Positions 8,082-14,943 of a DNA stretch of 64,000 nucleotides are shown here, piece by piece. How positions within the stretch are numbered: position 1 is the first letter of the stretch; each line of letters opens with the position of its first letter. This DNA comes from an uncultured Algimonas sp. (GTDB lineage Bacteria > Pseudomonadota > Alphaproteobacteria > Caulobacterales > Maricaulaceae): contig NZ_CANMJB010000002.1 of assembly GCF_947498175.1 (NCBI RefSeq), positions 248,001 through 312,000 on the forward strand, read 5' to 3'. The notes under the pieces were generated by a model. The model did no database searches. It worked only from the letters and a program-made list of their open reading frames with translations, and was not told the DNA's origin. A program made the position numbers and the translations under genes.

Positions 8082-8390
8082 ATGTCCGACACGACGACAC
8101 CGACGCCCGATGTGGGCGACATCATCGGCCAGCTGCAAGGCAAGCTGATCGCGCTGGGGCGGGCAGTGGACACGCTGCCCGCCAAGGAGATCGAGGCGAC
8201 CGCCAAGTCGATCAACCTACTCATCACCAGCCTGGAGAAGGCGGACGGCTATCTGCGCCGCCACGCCCCGCCCGCGCCGGGCGGCGGACTCAGCGCGCCG
8301 TCGCGGCTGGACCTGCTGCGCCGCATCAAGCGCATGGTGGAGAACGGCGTGCTCCGGGAATTGGACGAACCGGGGCGGACCGATGCATAG
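8082..8390 (+). CDS. GTA gp1-position protein, candidate small terminase subunit
   Basis: 102-residue mostly helical protein with a low-complexity N-terminus, a central amphipathic helix (about residues 18-52) and a C-terminal basic helix (LDLLRRIKRMVENGV). It has a GGGGAGA ribosome-binding site. It lies directly before the large terminase gene and overlaps it by eight bases, the position of gp1 in RcGTA, which acts as small terminase (TerS). The sequence alone carries no diagnostic motif that I can see, so the call rests on position, size and helical character. Confidence 0.55.
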   Translation: MSDTTTPTPDVGDIIGQLQGKLIALGRAVDTLPAKEIEATAKSINLLITSLEKADGYLRRHAPPAPGGGLSAPSRLDLLRRIKRMVENGVLRELDEPGRTDA

Positions 8391-9687
8391 CGGCCTTTCG
8401 ACCCGGCGGTTCCGGACCTCGGACCTGTCCCCGGAACACCGCGCCTATGTCGCGTCCAACTGGCACGGCTCGGCGCGGCCCGACCAGGTCGAACCGGACG
8501 ACCCCGACTGGGCCGTCTGGCTGGTGCTGGGCGGGCGCGGGTCGGGCAAGACGCGCACCGGCGCCGAATGGGTTCTGGACCGGGTCCGGCGCGGCGCGCG
8601 CCGCATCGCCCTGGTCGGGCCGACCCTGCACGATGCGCGCGAAGTCATGCTGGGCGGGCAGAGCGGGCTGATGCGCGTGGCGCAGGCCAATCTGCGTCCG
8701 CGGTTCGAGCCGACCCGGCGGCGCGTCGTCTTCCCCGACGACGACCACGGCCCGGGCGCCGTCGCGCACCTTTTTTCGGCGCATGAGCCGGACAGCCTTC
8801 GCGGCCCGCAATTCGATTGCGCCTGGGGCGACGAATTCTGTGCCTGGAAGGATCCGGACGCGGTGCTGTCCAATCTGCGGCTGGGCCTGCGCCTGAGCAC
8901 GAAGACGGGCGCCAGGCCGCGCCTGTGCCTGACGACCACGCCCAAGCCGGGCACCGCGCTCGACCGGCTGGCGGCGCAGTCCGGAACGCGGCTGGTGCGC
9001 TCGCGCACGCGCGACAATGCGGACCATCTCGCCCCCGGCTTCGTCGAACGGATGGAGGAGACGTACGGCGGCACGGCGCTGGGGCGCCAGGAACTGGACG
9101 GCGAGATCGTGCGCGACCATCCCGGCGCGGTCTTCGCCCGGACCGACATCGACGCGCACAGGGTCGCCGAAGCGCCGCCGCTGGACCGCATCCTCGTCGC
9201 GCTCGACCCGCCCGCCACGTCGGGCCCGAAGGCCGATGCGTGCGGGATCGTCGTCGCAGGCGCCGCGGGCCGGGGACGCAAGGCGCAGGCCTACGTCCTG
9301 CACGACGCCAGCGTGGCGGGCGCCACCCCGCAAGCCTGGGCGGAGCGCGCCGTCGCCGCCTACCGCGAATTCGGCGCCGAAGCGATCCTGGCCGAAACCA
9401 ATCAGGGTGGGGAGATGATCGAAGCGGTGATCCGCGAAGTCGGTCCCGACGTGCCGGTCCTGCGCCGCCATGCCCGCCGCTCCAAGCGTGGCCGCGCCGT
9501 GCCGGTGGGATTGCTCTATGCGCGCGGCCGGGTCCGTCACGTCGGCCGGATGGACGCGCTGGAGGACGAGCTGTGCAGCTTCGGCGGCCCCCACGCGTCG
9601 GGCAGTCCGGACCGGATGGACGCGCTGGTCTGGGCCGTGAGCGAGCTGTTGCTCGACCGGCCCGCGCCCAAGGTGCATCTGTTCTGA
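8383..9687 (+). CDS. GTA large terminase subunit (gp2)
   Basis: 434-residue DNA-packaging ATPase/nuclease. Walker A GGRGSGKT is at residues 50-57 and the Walker B acidic pair DE at 150-151 in the CAWGDEFCAW context typical of GTA/HK97-type TerL. A coupling-motif-like TTTPKP follows near residue 187. The RNase H-like nuclease half has Asp-rich ILVALDPPATSGPKAD and ILAETNQGG segments and a late PDRMDALVWA. Length and all motifs look intact, so the protein may still work. In a GTA it packages random host DNA into heads. Confidence 0.9.
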   Translation: MHSGLSTRRFRTSDLSPEHRAYVASNWHGSARPDQVEPDDPDWAVWLVLGGRGSGKTRTGAEWVLDRVRRGARRIALVGPTLHDAREVMLGGQSGLMRVAQANLRPRFEPTRRRVVFPDDDHGPGAVAHLFSAHEPDSLRGPQFDCAWGDEFCAWKDPDAVLSNLRLGLRLSTKTGARPRLCLTTTPKPGTALDRLAAQSGTRLVRSRTRDNADHLAPGFVERMEETYGGTALGRQELDGEIVRDHPGAVFARTDIDAHRVAEAPPLDRILVALDPPATSGPKADACGIVVAGAAGRGRKAQAYVLHDASVAGATPQAWAERAVAAYREFGAEAILAETNQGGEMIEAVIREVGPDVPVLRRHARRSKRGRAVPVGLLYARGRVRHVGRMDALEDELCSFGGPHASGSPDRMDALVWAVSELLLDRPAPKVHLF

Positions 9688-9797: not shown

Positions 9798-9874
9798 GCT
9801 GTTCGTGCAGGGCTGGACCGCATAAGGGGCTGGCCGCAGGATGCGTCCGGTAAGCAGGCATGGGGAGGCAAATC

Positions 9875-10336
9875 ATGATTGCACGCAAACGCAAGACGGC
9901 GGGGACCACCGACACGCGGCGGCAGATGGCCGAATTGCAGATCGAGCTGCGCGAGACCGACCGCGAGCTGGGCAAGCTCAACTGGGATCTGGCGACCGAA
10001 CTGATCCGCCTGTCGGACGAAACGAATGACCCCGCCGCCCTGATCGAAGCCGTCGAGGCCCTGCGCTCCGCCACCCGCTACTACACGTTCGAGGATGCGC
10101 CGCGCGAACACGCGCTGGTGCAGAAACGCCTCGCCGACACGTTGCTGGTCCTCGGCCAGCGCACGGACGACCGCGACGCTCTCGCCAGTGCCCGCGACGC
10201 CTATCGCGGCGCGATCACGCTGGCCTCGCTGCTGTCGGACGACGCGCTGCGCGAAGACCTGCGCGCGACCTACAAGATCACGCTGGCCCTGCTCGGCGAC
10301 GCGCCCAAGACGGCGCCTCTGTTCCGGGTGGCGTAG
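9875..10336 (+). CDS. helical-repeat (TPR-like) protein inserted between terminase and portal
   Basis: 153-residue protein, all helical by composition, with pairs of helices resembling tetratricopeptide repeats (for example DPAALIEAVEALRSATRYY and DRDALASARDAYRGAITLA). ATG 9875 is chosen because GGGGAGG lies seven bases before it; an in-frame GTG-type start at 9860 would be longer. No GTA gene of this kind is known to me at this place, where portal normally follows terminase closely. It is flanked by 187 and 455 bases of non-coding DNA, so it looks like a separate transcription unit. Function unknown; it may be an insertion or a later-recruited gene. Confidence 0.7.
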   Translation: MIARKRKTAGTTDTRRQMAELQIELRETDRELGKLNWDLATELIRLSDETNDPAALIEAVEALRSATRYYTFEDAPREHALVQKRLADTLLVLGQRTDDRDALASARDAYRGAITLASLLSDDALREDLRATYKITLALLGDAPKTAPLFRVA

Positions 10337-10742: not shown

Positions 10743-10791
10743 AAGAGTTTATCGCTGCTCAAAAGGTTTGGGCACGACAGGAACCTCTCTC

Positions 10792-11952
10792 ATGAAACTT
10801 CCCTTCACCGGGCGCGCCAGCGCGTCCGCGCCTTTTCCGCTGCCGGACGGACGAGCCGGCGAAACCAAATCCACCCCGCTGGTCGCGCTGGAACTGGCGC
10901 GCCAGGCGTCCTTCACCGCGCCGGACTTCGCCTCGCTCTGCCGCGAGGGGTTCGCGAACAATCCGGTCGTCTATCGCTGCGTGCGCATGATCGCCGAAAG
11001 CGCGGCGTCCGTCCCGCTGACCGGAGCGCAATTGCCCAATGGGGCGATGGAGGCGCTGGAGCGCTTCCACGGCTACCTGCAGGTCGCGGGCGCCGCCTAT
11101 CTGCAGGCGGTGGTCCTGGACGGCGACGTCGTGGCGCTGCGCGCCCTTCGGCCGGACACGGTCAAGGCGCTTGGCGACGCGCAGGGCCGCCCGGCCGGAT
11201 ACGAGGTCGCCGCCGACCTGTCCCGATCCAACAGGGGCCGCGCCGTTCACCGCCGCGATCCCCTGACCGGGCGCTGCGCGGTGATGGGGCTCGCCCTGTT
11301 CAATCCGATGGACGAGGCGAACGGCCAGTCGCCCCTGCGCGCCGCCGCGACCAGCGTGGACCTGCACAATCAGGGCACGCGCTGGGCCAAGGGGCTGCTC
11401 GACAATTCGGCGCGGCCGTCCGGGGCGCTCGTCTATGACGGGGCGGGGACGCTGACCCGCGAACAGCTGGAGTCGATGAAGGCCGAGCTGGAACAGGGCT
11501 TCACCGGTCCGGCGCGGGCCGGGCGGCCCATGGTGCTGGAAGGCGGGCTGGACTGGAAGACGATGGGGATGAGCCCGTCGGACATGGACTTCACGCAAGG
11601 CCGGCGGGAGGCGGCCAGAGACATCGCGCTGGCCTTCGGCGTGCCGCCCATGCTGCTCGGCATTCCGGGCGACAACACCTACGCCAACTATGCGGAGGCC
11701 AACCGCGCCTTCTGGCGGCAGACCGTGCTGCCGCTGGTCGCGCGCACGGCGCGGGCCCTGTCGGTGTGGCTGTCGGCGTTCGGAGAGGAGGCGGCGCTCT
11801 CGCCGGACCTCGACGCCGTGCCGGCCCTGTCGGGCGAACGCTCGGCGCTGTGGGCGCGGCTGGAGGCGGCGAGCTTCTTGGACGAAGACGAGCGCCGCGC
11901 CTTCGCGGGGCTGCCGCCTCATCCCAAACATAATGGGGGAACGATCCAATGA
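10792..11952 (+). CDS. GTA portal protein (gp3, HK97-type)
   Basis: 386-residue portal protein of the phage HK97 family, which would form the dodecameric DNA entry ring of the head. Typical segments are NPVVYRCVRMIAESAASVP near the N-terminus, DLHNQGTRWAKGLLDNSARPSGAL in the middle and RREAARDIALAFGVPPMLLGIPGD near residue 280. Length is that of GTA portals. ATG 10792 has AGGA nine bases upstream; a longer in-frame TTG start lies at 10768. It overlaps the next gene by ATGA. The reading frame is intact. Confidence 0.9.
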   Translation: MKLPFTGRASASAPFPLPDGRAGETKSTPLVALELARQASFTAPDFASLCREGFANNPVVYRCVRMIAESAASVPLTGAQLPNGAMEALERFHGYLQVAGAAYLQAVVLDGDVVALRALRPDTVKALGDAQGRPAGYEVAADLSRSNRGRAVHRRDPLTGRCAVMGLALFNPMDEANGQSPLRAAATSVDLHNQGTRWAKGLLDNSARPSGALVYDGAGTLTREQLESMKAELEQGFTGPARAGRPMVLEGGLDWKTMGMSPSDMDFTQGRREAARDIALAFGVPPMLLGIPGDNTYANYAEANRAFWRQTVLPLVARTARALSVWLSAFGEEAALSPDLDAVPALSGERSALWARLEAASFLDEDERRAFAGLPPHPKHNGGTIQ

Positions 11953-12185
11953 GCGGCGTGCGTCTGGAGCGCACGGTGACGCTCGGCCTGATCGCGACCG
12001 TCTTCCTGCAGACGGCGGGCGCCCTGATCTGGGTCGGGGCGGCGGAAGCGCGCATCGAGCAGCTGGAGCGCGAAGTCGAGACCAGCTGGGCGATCAGCGA
12101 ACGGCTCGCCCGGCTGGAGGGCGAAACGGCCGTCATGGCGCACACGCTGCGCCGCATCGAGGAGGCGCTCCACGATGCGGATTAG
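11949..12185 (+). CDS. small GTA membrane/coiled-coil protein (gp3.5 position)
   Basis: 78-residue protein with one hydrophobic helix (about residues 11-32) followed by a charged heptad-like segment (ARIEQLEREVETSWAISERL). It overlaps both neighbours (ATGA with portal, 11 bases with protease), as small orfs between portal and protease do in RcGTA-like clusters. No enzymatic motif is visible. Its role in particle formation is unknown. Confidence 0.7.
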   Translation: MSGVRLERTVTLGLIATVFLQTAGALIWVGAAEARIEQLEREVETSWAISERLARLEGETAVMAHTLRRIEEALHDAD

Positions 12186-12608
12186 CGGTTACGCGTCTCG
12201 CTTCGACGAGCGCGACGCGGGCGGGGACACGGTGCGGCGCGGGGCGTTCGCCGCCTCGCTGCTGTCGCGCTCCGGGGCGCTGCCCATGCTGTCGGACCAT
12301 CAGCGCCGGGTCGGCACCTGGACCCGCGTGGTCGAGGACGAGACGGGCCTGCGCGTCGAAGGCGAGGTCGAGGATGCCGCGCTGGCCCGGCTGATCCGGT
12401 CCGGCAAGGTCGGCGGCCTGTCCATCGGCTACCGCACGCGGCGGTCGAGGGACGGCCGGGCACGAGCCCGCCCACGCGCGAGCTGCTCGACCTGGATCTC
12501 TCCGAGGTCTCGGTCGTGGCCTTCCCGATGCTGGGCTCGGCCCGGATCGACAAGATGGTCGCGGCTCGCGCTCGGCGTCATGACGTCTCCGCTTCCGTCG
12601 CTCGCTGA
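12175..12608 (+). pseudogene. GTA prohead protease (gp4), frameshifted
   Basis: The N-terminal part from ATG 12175 has the HK97-type prohead protease pattern. The catalytic His is residue 42 (LSDHQRRVGTW) and the catalytic Ser residue 83 (GLSIGYRT). After RTRRSRDG the expected sequence RELLDLDLSEVSVVAFPML continues in another frame, which runs to a stop at 12606-12608; the original frame goes on as an arginine-rich nonsense tail to 12789, overlapping the next gene. The shift lies between about 12442 and 12477 and fits loss of one base. If real, the protease is truncated just after its catalytic Ser. Confidence 0.8.
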
Positions 12609-12703: not shown

Positions 12704-13954
12704 GTGACACATATCGAAACCAAAATGGCGACCCCGACCTTCTCGGAGGACTTCGCCGCCACGTTCGCCGCCTTCCGGCGCGCCAATGACGAACGCCTCG
12801 ACGAGATCGAGAAGAAGGCCGCCGCCGATCCCTTGCTCGACGCCAAGGTGGACCGGATCAACAAGCGGCTGGAGACGCTGTCCGTCAGCCTCTCGGCCCC
12901 GGGCGGGGCGCCCGCAGCCGAGCCTGAGTCCAAGACCGCCTGGTCGCGCTTCATCCGCACCGGCGACGAGGCCGCGCTGGGCGAATTCAAGTCGCTCTCC
13001 ACGGCGGACGGCCAAGGCGGCTTCGTCGCCCCCGTCGAGACCGAAAACCGCATCGACGCGGTGCGGCGCGATGCGGGGACAGGCTCAGCCTGGATAGCGG
13101 GGCCAACCCCGATCGCCGGACCGCCGCCCTCCTATGCGGGCGCGGCGCAGCTGCTCGCCTTCGACCTGCCGGACCGGGCCGGGATCACGGTCGGCGCGCT
13201 GCTGGATCCGTTCGAGCCGGTCACCGTGCGTTGGAACGGCCGGGAGGCGACGCTGGACGCGCCCGTGCGCATCGGCGCGACGCTGAGCGACCTGCCCGCC
13301 CGGCCCCCTCATCTTCGCGACCGCGGCACCGTTTTGGAGGTGCGCCTTCCAGGACTGGCCCTGGCCTCGCTGGAGGACGACGCCTTCCTGGCGGGCGGCA
13401 ACCGTTTCGCCGTGGAGACCGCGACCGGATGGGAGATAATCGCCGCGCGCGACGCCGTGCTGAGCGCCCCGCAGACCTACCGCCTGTCGCATTTGCTGCG
13501 CGGTCTGGACGGCAGCGACGCGTTCATGGACGGCGATGTGCCGCCGGGCGCGCGCATCCTCTGGCTGGTCGCGGGTCTGGTGACCCTATCGGGGGCGGAC
13601 GACTGGCGCGGGAGCACTGTCGAAGTCCTCGGGAAGACGGACCGGCGGGAGGCCCGCCCGGCGGAGCTGGTCTGGACGGACCGGAACGGCTGGCCGCTTT
13701 CGCCCGTTCATCCGCGCTGGAACGGCGCGGCGCTGTCCTGGACCGGGCGCGATTCAAGCTTCACGGACTGGACAGAGGACGCATCGCATCTGCGCTACCG
13801 CGTGCGCCTGGTCCGTGGCGGCGTGACGGAAACGATCGACACGGCGCTGACCGCACTGAGCGTTCAGCCGTTCGACCGGGCCGAAATCGTCCAGCTGGCA
13901 CCGGATGGCCGCGAGAGTCTTTTCCCGGCGGCGTTGAATGTGACGGGCGGGTGA
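12704..13954 (+). CDS. hybrid ORF: N-terminus of GTA major capsid (gp5) fused to C-terminus of host-specificity protein (gp15)
   Basis: 416-residue ORF made of two unrelated pieces. Residues 1-118 are the coiled-coil delta domain and mature start of an HK97-type capsid protein (AFRRANDERLDEIEKKAA..., then KSLSTADGQGGFVAPVETE). From about residue 126 the sequence is the C-terminal region of the GTA host-specificity/TIM-barrel-like protein (gp15 type): WEIIAARDAVL, LSHLLRGLDGSDAF, PLSPVHPRWNGAALSWTGR. The joint lies near 13055-13081. Most of capsid and all genes normally between gp5 and gp15 (head-tail adaptors, tape measure, tail proteins) are absent. The frame is kept across the joint. No particle can be built without a capsid gene, so this is a deletion remnant unless another copy exists elsewhere. 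Confidence 0.85.
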   Translation: MTHIETKMATPTFSEDFAATFAAFRRANDERLDEIEKKAAADPLLDAKVDRINKRLETLSVSLSAPGGAPAAEPESKTAWSRFIRTGDEAALGEFKSLSTADGQGGFVAPVETENRIDAVRRDAGTGSAWIAGPTPIAGPPPSYAGAAQLLAFDLPDRAGITVGALLDPFEPVTVRWNGREATLDAPVRIGATLSDLPARPPHLRDRGTVLEVRLPGLALASLEDDAFLAGGNRFAVETATGWEIIAARDAVLSAPQTYRLSHLLRGLDGSDAFMDGDVPPGARILWLVAGLVTLSGADDWRGSTVEVLGKTDRREARPAELVWTDRNGWPLSPVHPRWNGAALSWTGRDSSFTDWTEDASHLRYRVRLVRGGVTETIDTALTALSVQPFDRAEIVQLAPDGRESLFPAALNVTGG

Positions 13955-13968
13955 CTAAATAGGCCCCC

Positions 13969-14943
13969 ATGGCCACGAAGAATCCCTATGACCTGCTGGG
14001 CGTGAAGAAGACCGCGACGGACAAGGAGATCCGCTCGGCCTATCGCAAGCTCGCCAAGAAACTGCACCCGGACGTCAATCCCGATGATGAGGCCTCCGCC
14101 GAACGCTTCAAGGAGGTCACGGCCGCCTACAACCTGCTGTCCAACGAGGATCTGCGCAAGCAGTACGATACGGGCCAGATCGACGAACAGGGTCAGCAGA
14201 AGAACCCGTTCGCGGGGGCCGGCGGCTTCGGCCAGAGAGGGGGCAGCGGCGGGCCGGGGTTCGATACCGGCTTCGGCGGGTTCGAAGGCTTCGGCGCACG
14301 CGGCGGCGGCGGGACGCAGATGGGCCAGGACGAGATGTCGGATCTGTTCGGATCGCTGTTCGGCATGAATACGGGCCCGTTCGCGGGCGGAATGCGTGGC
14401 GGCATGAACCGGCCGCGCAAGGGGGCGGATGTCCAGTACACGGTCGCGCTCGACCTGTCCGAAGCGTTAAAAGGCGGAATGCGCCAATTGCCCAGCGGCA
14501 CCAAGGTCCGAATCCCGGCCGGCGTGCGCGATGGCCAGAGCCTGCGCGTGCGCGGCAAGGGCCAGCCCGGCGCGGGCGGCGGTCCGGCGGGCGACGCGTT
14601 GGTCAAGGTCTCGGTCAAGGACCATCCCAATCTGACGCGGCGCGGCGACGATCTGCATCTGCGCCTGCCGATCAGCCTGCACGAGGCGCTGAGCGGCGGC
14701 ACGGTCCGGCTCGACATGCCCAGCGGAGCGGTCAAGCTGAAGATCGCACCGGGCTCCAACACCGGCAAGAAGATGCGCCTGAAAGGCAAGGGTGCGCCCA
14801 GTGCGGGCAAGGGCAAGGCCCGCGGCAACCTGATCGTGGAGCTGGTCGTGACCTTGACGGAGGCCGAGCTGGACAAGGCGTCCGATATCGCCGGATCCCT
14901 GCCCGAAGAGGGCGGCGAGGGCCTGCGCGACGGGCTGATTTGA
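13969..14943 (+). CDS. DnaJ-family co-chaperone, CbpA-like (type B)
   Basis: 324-residue protein. The J domain occupies residues 1-65 with the HPD motif in LAKKLHPDVNPDD. Then comes a Gly/Phe-rich linker (about 75-140) and a C-terminal substrate-binding domain, without the CxxCxGxG zinc repeats of type A DnaJ. It would stimulate DnaK ATPase in the cytoplasm. It begins 15 bases after the GTA remnant but has its own conserved function and is not a GTA gene. Confidence 0.9.
   Translation: MATKNPYDLLGVKKTATDKEIRSAYRKLAKKLHPDVNPDDEASAERFKEVTAAYNLLSNEDLRKQYDTGQIDEQGQQKNPFAGAGGFGQRGGSGGPGFDTGFGGFEGFGARGGGGTQMGQDEMSDLFGSLFGMNTGPFAGGMRGGMNRPRKGADVQYTVALDLSEALKGGMRQLPSGTKVRIPAGVRDGQSLRVRGKGQPGAGGGPAGDALVKVSVKDHPNLTRRGDDLHLRLPISLHEALSGGTVRLDMPSGAVKLKIAPGSNTGKKMRLKGKGAPSAGKGKARGNLIVELVVTLTEAELDKASDIAGSLPEEGGEGLRDGLI

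Follow-up and report, generated by a model that had tools for sequence, protein, structure and literature searches.

A capsid–megatron fusion in an Algimonas gene transfer agent cluster, probably the scar of a deletion

The stretch of DNA that was analysed (64,000 nucleotides, hereafter the window) carries genes in the order of an RcGTA-like gene transfer agent (GTA) cluster, with terminase, portal and protease genes followed by a single long open reading frame and, at the right flank, by a gene for a DnaJ-class chaperone (Table 1). The protease gene is frameshifted in the assembly, and the similarity of its C-terminal part to the proteases of relatives continues in a different frame until a stop at 12606-12608. 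This frameshift could be a sequencing error. The relatives named most often below are G001 and G003, which were tentatively assigned to Algimonas arctica and Algimonas porphyrae, respectively, G005 (a Hellea MAG) and G008 (an Algimonas MAG), while G000 is the genome to which the window itself belongs.

Table 1. Features of the GTA cluster and its right flank, in window coordinates.
Feature	Position	Strand	Basis
Small ORF before the large terminase, g1-like by position	8082..8390	+	tblastn, same place: 48% identity in G003, 40% in G008, 57% in G001
Large terminase (g2), intact ORF	8383..9687	+	Pfam PF03237, PF17289; 65-67% identity to G003/G008
Conserved ORF between terminase and portal	9860..10336	+	In 8/10 relative loci searched and in A. 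arctica (L075)
Portal (g3), intact ORF	10768..11952	+	Pfam PF04860, E 4.5e-64; 70-72% identity to G003, G005, G008
Small ORF at the g3.5 position, intact, 78 aa	11949..12185	+	Counterpart at the same place in G003, by eye
Prohead protease (g4), frameshift between ~12448 and 12480	12175..12608	+	Pfam PF04586, residues 3-91
Capsid::megatron fusion ORF	12704..13954	+	GTG start, 416 aa
Capsid (g5) part, ~120 codons, covering the delta domain and the first residues of the mature part	12704..13063	+	70-74% identity to three genus capsids
Approximate joint (probable deletion scar, ~7.5 kb lost relative to G008/G005)	13057..13070	+	DNA of relatives compared; spacing 7.4-7.6 kb in G005/G008
C-terminal part of g15 (megatron), 296 codons plus stop, beginning near Rcc01698 residue 969	13064..13954	+	PF23666; 6TBA/6TEH alignment
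Promoter-like element TTGAAT-N16-TAAATA, which overlaps the g15 stop and leaves 7 bases to the dnaJ ATG	13934..13961	+	Sequence match
dnaJ-class chaperone gene, right flank of the GTA cluster	13969..14943	+	Pfam DnaJ, DnaJ_C; after the g15 end in 10/10 relative loci

The first ~118 residues of the long reading frame share 70-74% identity with the capsid N-termini of G003, G005 and G008 (same genus), and the full G003 capsid matches the major capsid protein of RcGTA, Rcc01687 (PDB 6TB9), at 1e-76. The front of the frame is thus the start of an HK97-type GTA capsid, delta domain and beginning of the mature part included, as the preliminary description had it. The N-terminal half alone has no Pfam or PHROGs match, and no Pfam Phage_capsid domain was found in the fusion ORF. 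Since the Pfam capsid model begins only at residue 100 in an intact relative, the fusion retains the delta domain and just ~20 residues of the mature part. The probable position of the maturation site was taken from the alignment to Rcc01687. For RcGTA, the N-terminal ends of capsid proteins located at the portal are given as residues 99-106 (PMC7296036).

The remainder of the frame belongs to the other end of a GTA cluster. The only Pfam family in the fusion ORF at E 0.01 is PF23666 (Rcc01698_C, E 6.5e-27, residues 189-285), and the C-terminal half also matches the tail protein family PHROG 4271. Its identity to the 3' end of g15 is 55-58% in the four closest loci and 34-46% in the six others searched. 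The GTA_TIM and Phage-tail_3 domains were not found in the fusion ORF by Pfam; both are present in the g15 of A. arctica. The first assignment, to a gp15-type host-specificity protein, therefore stands and can be refined: the protein is the megatron, and the part kept corresponds closely to its fibre-binding domain. The observation of a capsid::megatron fusion ORF is thus confirmed.

Searches with the whole fusion protein yielded little. Scans of the genome_contigs and viral_contigs collections returned no relative. Among phage records, 12 match part of the C-terminal half at <60% identity, and none of the 12 covers 80% of the query. A PDB search gave just two weak matches (E 0.003), to unrelated repeat-bearing proteins. 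The AlphaFold model, made from an alignment of six rows, has a mean pLDDT of 46.6 and is too poor to show folded domains.

The sequence over the joint is ETENRIDAVRRDAG. It is capsid-like through ...ETENRIDAV (residue 120, nucleotide ~13063) and g15-like from RRD (residue 121), slightly earlier than about residue 126, where the g15 part had first been thought to begin. At the corresponding places, the capsids of relatives read ETEN(R/Q)ID-x-x-LE-x-ASP and the g15 of G001 and G008 reads TARRD. The exact base of the joint cannot be fixed because no sufficiently close parent sequence is available, and the parents are too diverged for microhomology to be told from chance.

When the A. arctica g15 is aligned to PDB 6TBA and 6TEH, the g15 part of the fusion starts at about residue 969 of Rcc01698 (counted by hand). 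The megatron was divided into iris (1-46), adhesin-like (47-229), peripheral (230-744), central (745-984) and fibre-binding (985-1304) domains (PMC7296036). With its start at ~969 and the domain border at 985, the fusion holds the fibre-binding domain and little other megatron sequence. A joint so near a domain border looks unlikely to arise by chance, and it argues against reading the fusion as the scar of a deletion.

What lies between the two halves elsewhere is apparent from G008, which has the full gene order. After the capsid gene, Pfam finds head-tail connector, head completion, tail completion, tail tube, gp10-like, tape measure, DUF2460, hub and NlpC/P60 peptidase genes and then g15, the gp10-like match being weak and below the cut-off. 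None of these connector, completion, tail tube, gp10-like, tape measure, DUF2460, hub and peptidase genes lies between the two halves in the window. Relative to G008, the capsid core, g6-g14 and most of g15 are missing, ~7.5 kb in all. With homology on both sides and the missing genes standing in order in a genome of the same genus, the first description of the locus as a GTA cluster with its middle deleted, both ends kept and the frame intact proved sound.

Four of the missing pieces were also sought in the rest of G000, an assembly of 2.85 Mb in 26 contigs with a completeness of 100. Neither the capsid core (full G003 capsid as query, and PF05065), nor the front of g15 (the g15 query matches the C-terminal part alone), nor the tail tube (PF06199), nor DUF2460 (PF09343) was found, apart from a distant prophage capsid; PF06199 and PF09343 were both recovered from G008 as a control. 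That capsid was considered as the missing GTA capsid and rejected, as it has a partial match of 24% identity and one internal stop.

Two side observations concern the same genome. On contig C4 (~306-314 kb; L061 6095-14540) lies a small prophage-like block, in which the capsid frame (PF05065) with its one TAA is accompanied, as judged by eye, by a different large terminase, a prohead protease, a short portal and an integrase. Contigs C3 and C4 also carry two DUF2793 genes (L084 5395-6387, L085 5563-6980), DUF2793 being what we take to be the GTA tail fibre family. One of them encodes 330 aa, compared with 428 aa in G003 and 423 aa in G016, and the other is apparently split across two frames; the A. 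arctica copy has an internal TGA.

These results bear on whether the joint is an artefact, a collapse or chimera in a 26-contig draft of a strain that has a full g5-g15 set. The assembly is indeed a draft, and the protease frameshift could be an error too. However, the joint lies ~261 kb into a contig of 476 kb, the four pieces sought are absent from a genome rated 100% complete, and a similar loss is seen in a related species with a single-contig nanopore assembly. An assembly error is accordingly considered highly improbable.

The comparison was extended to 18 genomes of the genus and 137 of the family, 117 of the 137 having some match at 1e-8. Among the matches listed, both halves share a contig in 40 genomes other than G000 (matches without such a partner being omitted); the distance between the halves is 7.2-10.7 kb in 39 of these and 3.1 kb in G003. 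A single match over both halves, again among the matches listed, occurs in G000 only, one of 41 such genomes. The same joint was thus seen in no other of the 41 family genomes placed.

The short distance in A. porphyrae (G003, a single-contig nanopore genome) reflects a different lesion. The chromosome of strain LMG 26424 of this species is given as 3,169,281 bp (PMC11556061). Here g5 to g10.1 are kept, followed by ~20 codons of g11 joined to the last ~315 codons of g15. This joint is out of frame, and g11 meets a stop at codon 3.

A third kind of lesion is found in A. arctica (G001). Similarity to the portal stops at codon 44-47, where ~90 bp of contig C9 are left; g15, which has an in-frame TAA, starts 84 bp into contig C12. 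The ends that flank the gap carry a 42-bp inverted repeat of 93% identity (L075 9711-9752, L035 43-84), which suggests that an insertion sequence sits between portal and g15 and broke the assembly. Capsid, tail tube and DUF2460 genes were not found in the A. arctica genome. G005 has a normal spacing of 7.4 kb and a g15 frame of 1167 codons. The g15 of G006 is broken into three pieces that occupy two frames (L040 12415-16091, reverse complement), possibly another decaying GTA or an assembly error.

A single deletion shared by the window and A. porphyrae was considered and rejected, since the 3' ends of the two gaps are ~25 codons apart and the 5' ends six genes apart (g6 to g10.1). It is further opposed by the best tree, which joins A. 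porphyrae with A. arctica, whose g15 is nearly full length, although this tree is ahead by just 3.6 log units with dnaJ and by 0.4 with the g15 part. At least ~296 codons at the end of g15 survive in each of the three lesions.

The codon model used to look at selection was written by ourselves and run on one tree, with gapped alignment columns dropped and synonymous sites near saturation; with five sequences for the g15 part and dnaJ, four for the portal and the capsid part and three for the terminase and the kinase, it gave omega values on the window branch of 0.026 (g15 part), 0.022 (dnaJ), 0.071 (portal), 0.086 (capsid part), 0.117 (terminase) and 0.039 (kinase). An omega of 1 on this branch is rejected for the g15 part (2dlnL 24.2) and for the capsid part (7.3). 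The values on the window branch do not differ significantly from those elsewhere for the terminase (0.117 versus 0.059, 2dlnL 1.8) or the capsid part (0.086 versus 0.040, 2dlnL 1.1). For most of the window branch the sequence has been under constraint, as would be expected equally from a recent deletion and from retention. A fully open fused ORF that bears the mark of purifying selection on both parts argues against a deletion scar, and it also fits a deletion that is recent.

The preliminary description had left a choice between decay and a hybrid kept for another reason. In the latter case, a retained protein would have the delta domain as its front, helical and possibly able to oligomerise, and the fibre-binding domain as its folded back, with a function in the host or in blocking GTA assembly. 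The preserved frame, the kept start of the capsid gene, the position of the joint close to a domain border and the low omega on both parts are what such a protein would lead one to expect. However, omega cannot separate the time before the deletion from the time after it, the fusion occurs in one of the 41 genomes with both halves on one contig among the matches listed, and no second lineage that conserves it was found among the matches listed from the 18 genus and 137 family genomes. The end of g15 in A. porphyrae is out of frame with the g11 start that precedes it, the protease of the same cluster as the fusion is frameshifted and the predicted model is too poor for folded domains to be recognized. 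Retention is therefore considered very unlikely. There is a similarly slim chance, if anything slimmer, that the in-frame hybrid was kept after the death of the GTA as a new two-domain protein, for example to sequester GTA fibres or capsids as a decoy. Decay is favoured by the frameshifted protease and by the lesions of two related species, which differ from that in the window and of which one is out of frame.

The g15 end might also have been spared on account of its neighbour. The distance from the g15 stop to the dnaJ start is 14 bp in the window, G001 and G003 and 16 bp in G005 and G008. With this close spacing in all five loci that gave a result, and with the g15 end intact in all three lesions, selection on dnaJ through operon read-through or coupled translation, rather than on any protein product, could have preserved the 3' region of g15 together with its open frame. 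Such selection would be compatible with a deletion scar. It is opposed by the promoter-like element directly 5' of dnaJ in 7/11 loci, by the A. porphyrae joint, which is out of frame, and by synonymous sites, few of which could be scored, that become no more conserved toward the g15 end. On balance, this explanation is unlikely.

The element itself was recognized as TTGA(A/C)-N15-19-TA(A/G/T)NT just before the dnaJ ATG. It has the form TTGAAx...TARRTA in five loci, which make up one close group, and TTGAAA...TATCTC in two (L036, L039). The pattern is absent from the other 4/11 loci, one of which, L038, has a doubtful dnaJ start and is not a fair test, and it has 4 matches on both strands of the 64 kb window. 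A standard sigma-70 scan did not report 13934-13961 and instead reported 13413-13440, where 0.1 was expected. Judging by the sequence pattern, dnaJ may be expressed from this element without the GTA operon, in which case its transcript would be nearly leaderless and independent of that operon. An active element would account for the survival of the very end of g15, not of ~296 codons. The retained length of g15 far exceeds what the promoter-like element needs, which is a point against the deletion scar.

The fusion ORF is nevertheless very probably the scar of a deletion in a degenerating GTA that formerly had a complete RcGTA-like head-tail cluster. A single deletion of ~7.5 kb would have removed everything from codon ~120 of g5 to the start of the g15 fibre-binding domain. 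The frame would have been kept by chance, so that the reading frame that starts with the capsid gene now continues through the final ~296 codons of g15. Keeping the frame calls for no special cause, since the chance of it is 1 in 3 and the A. porphyrae lesion is out of frame; the latter is also why the idea that selection was required for the frame was rejected. The deletion would be fairly recent and would have struck a cluster that is being lost across the group. Since the capsid shell, tail tube, tape measure, hub and most of the megatron are gone and the protease is frameshifted, the locus is predicted to make no particles carrying host DNA.

If so, the locus would show, at a precisely defined position, how a gene transfer agent of the domesticated, phage-like kind can be lost. 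With three species carrying three lesions and the next closest relative, a MAG, keeping the set, the group offers a natural test of neutral versus favoured GTA loss. There is also a warning here for annotators, as a gene of 416 aa called "capsid" or "tail" can be a scar. Literature searches, mostly at the level of listings, found neither a capsid::megatron hybrid nor repeated GTA loss in Algimonas, and a search pairing GTA with Algimonas found no paper.

RcGTA-like clusters are reported from 78% of Caulobacterales OTUs (PMC6821227). Like the head-tail cluster of RcGTA in Rhodobacter capsulatus (g1-g15), the window has the terminase, portal, protease, capsid start and megatron end in the same order; unlike it, the window lacks the g5 core, g6-g14 and most of g15, and its g4 is frameshifted. 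The capsids of the relatives are clear homologues of Rcc01687 (PDB 6TB9, 6TBA), of which the fusion keeps the part before the shell domain and lacks nearly all of the HK97 shell domain itself. Like the megatron Rcc01698 (PDB 6TBA, 6TEH), the fusion has the fibre-binding domain region and PF23666, whereas the iris, adhesin-like and peripheral domains and nearly all of the central domain are absent.

An incomplete GTA cluster is already known as a kind. Incomplete RcGTA-like clusters are called abundant in Alphaproteobacteria (PMC9765227), and the window resembles them in lacking genes needed for particle production. Clusters may seem incomplete because replaced genes go unrecognised (PMC9765227). 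In the window, by contrast, the gap is an in-frame joint that leaves no room for replaced genes, and the genes were lost there, since loci of the same genus have them.
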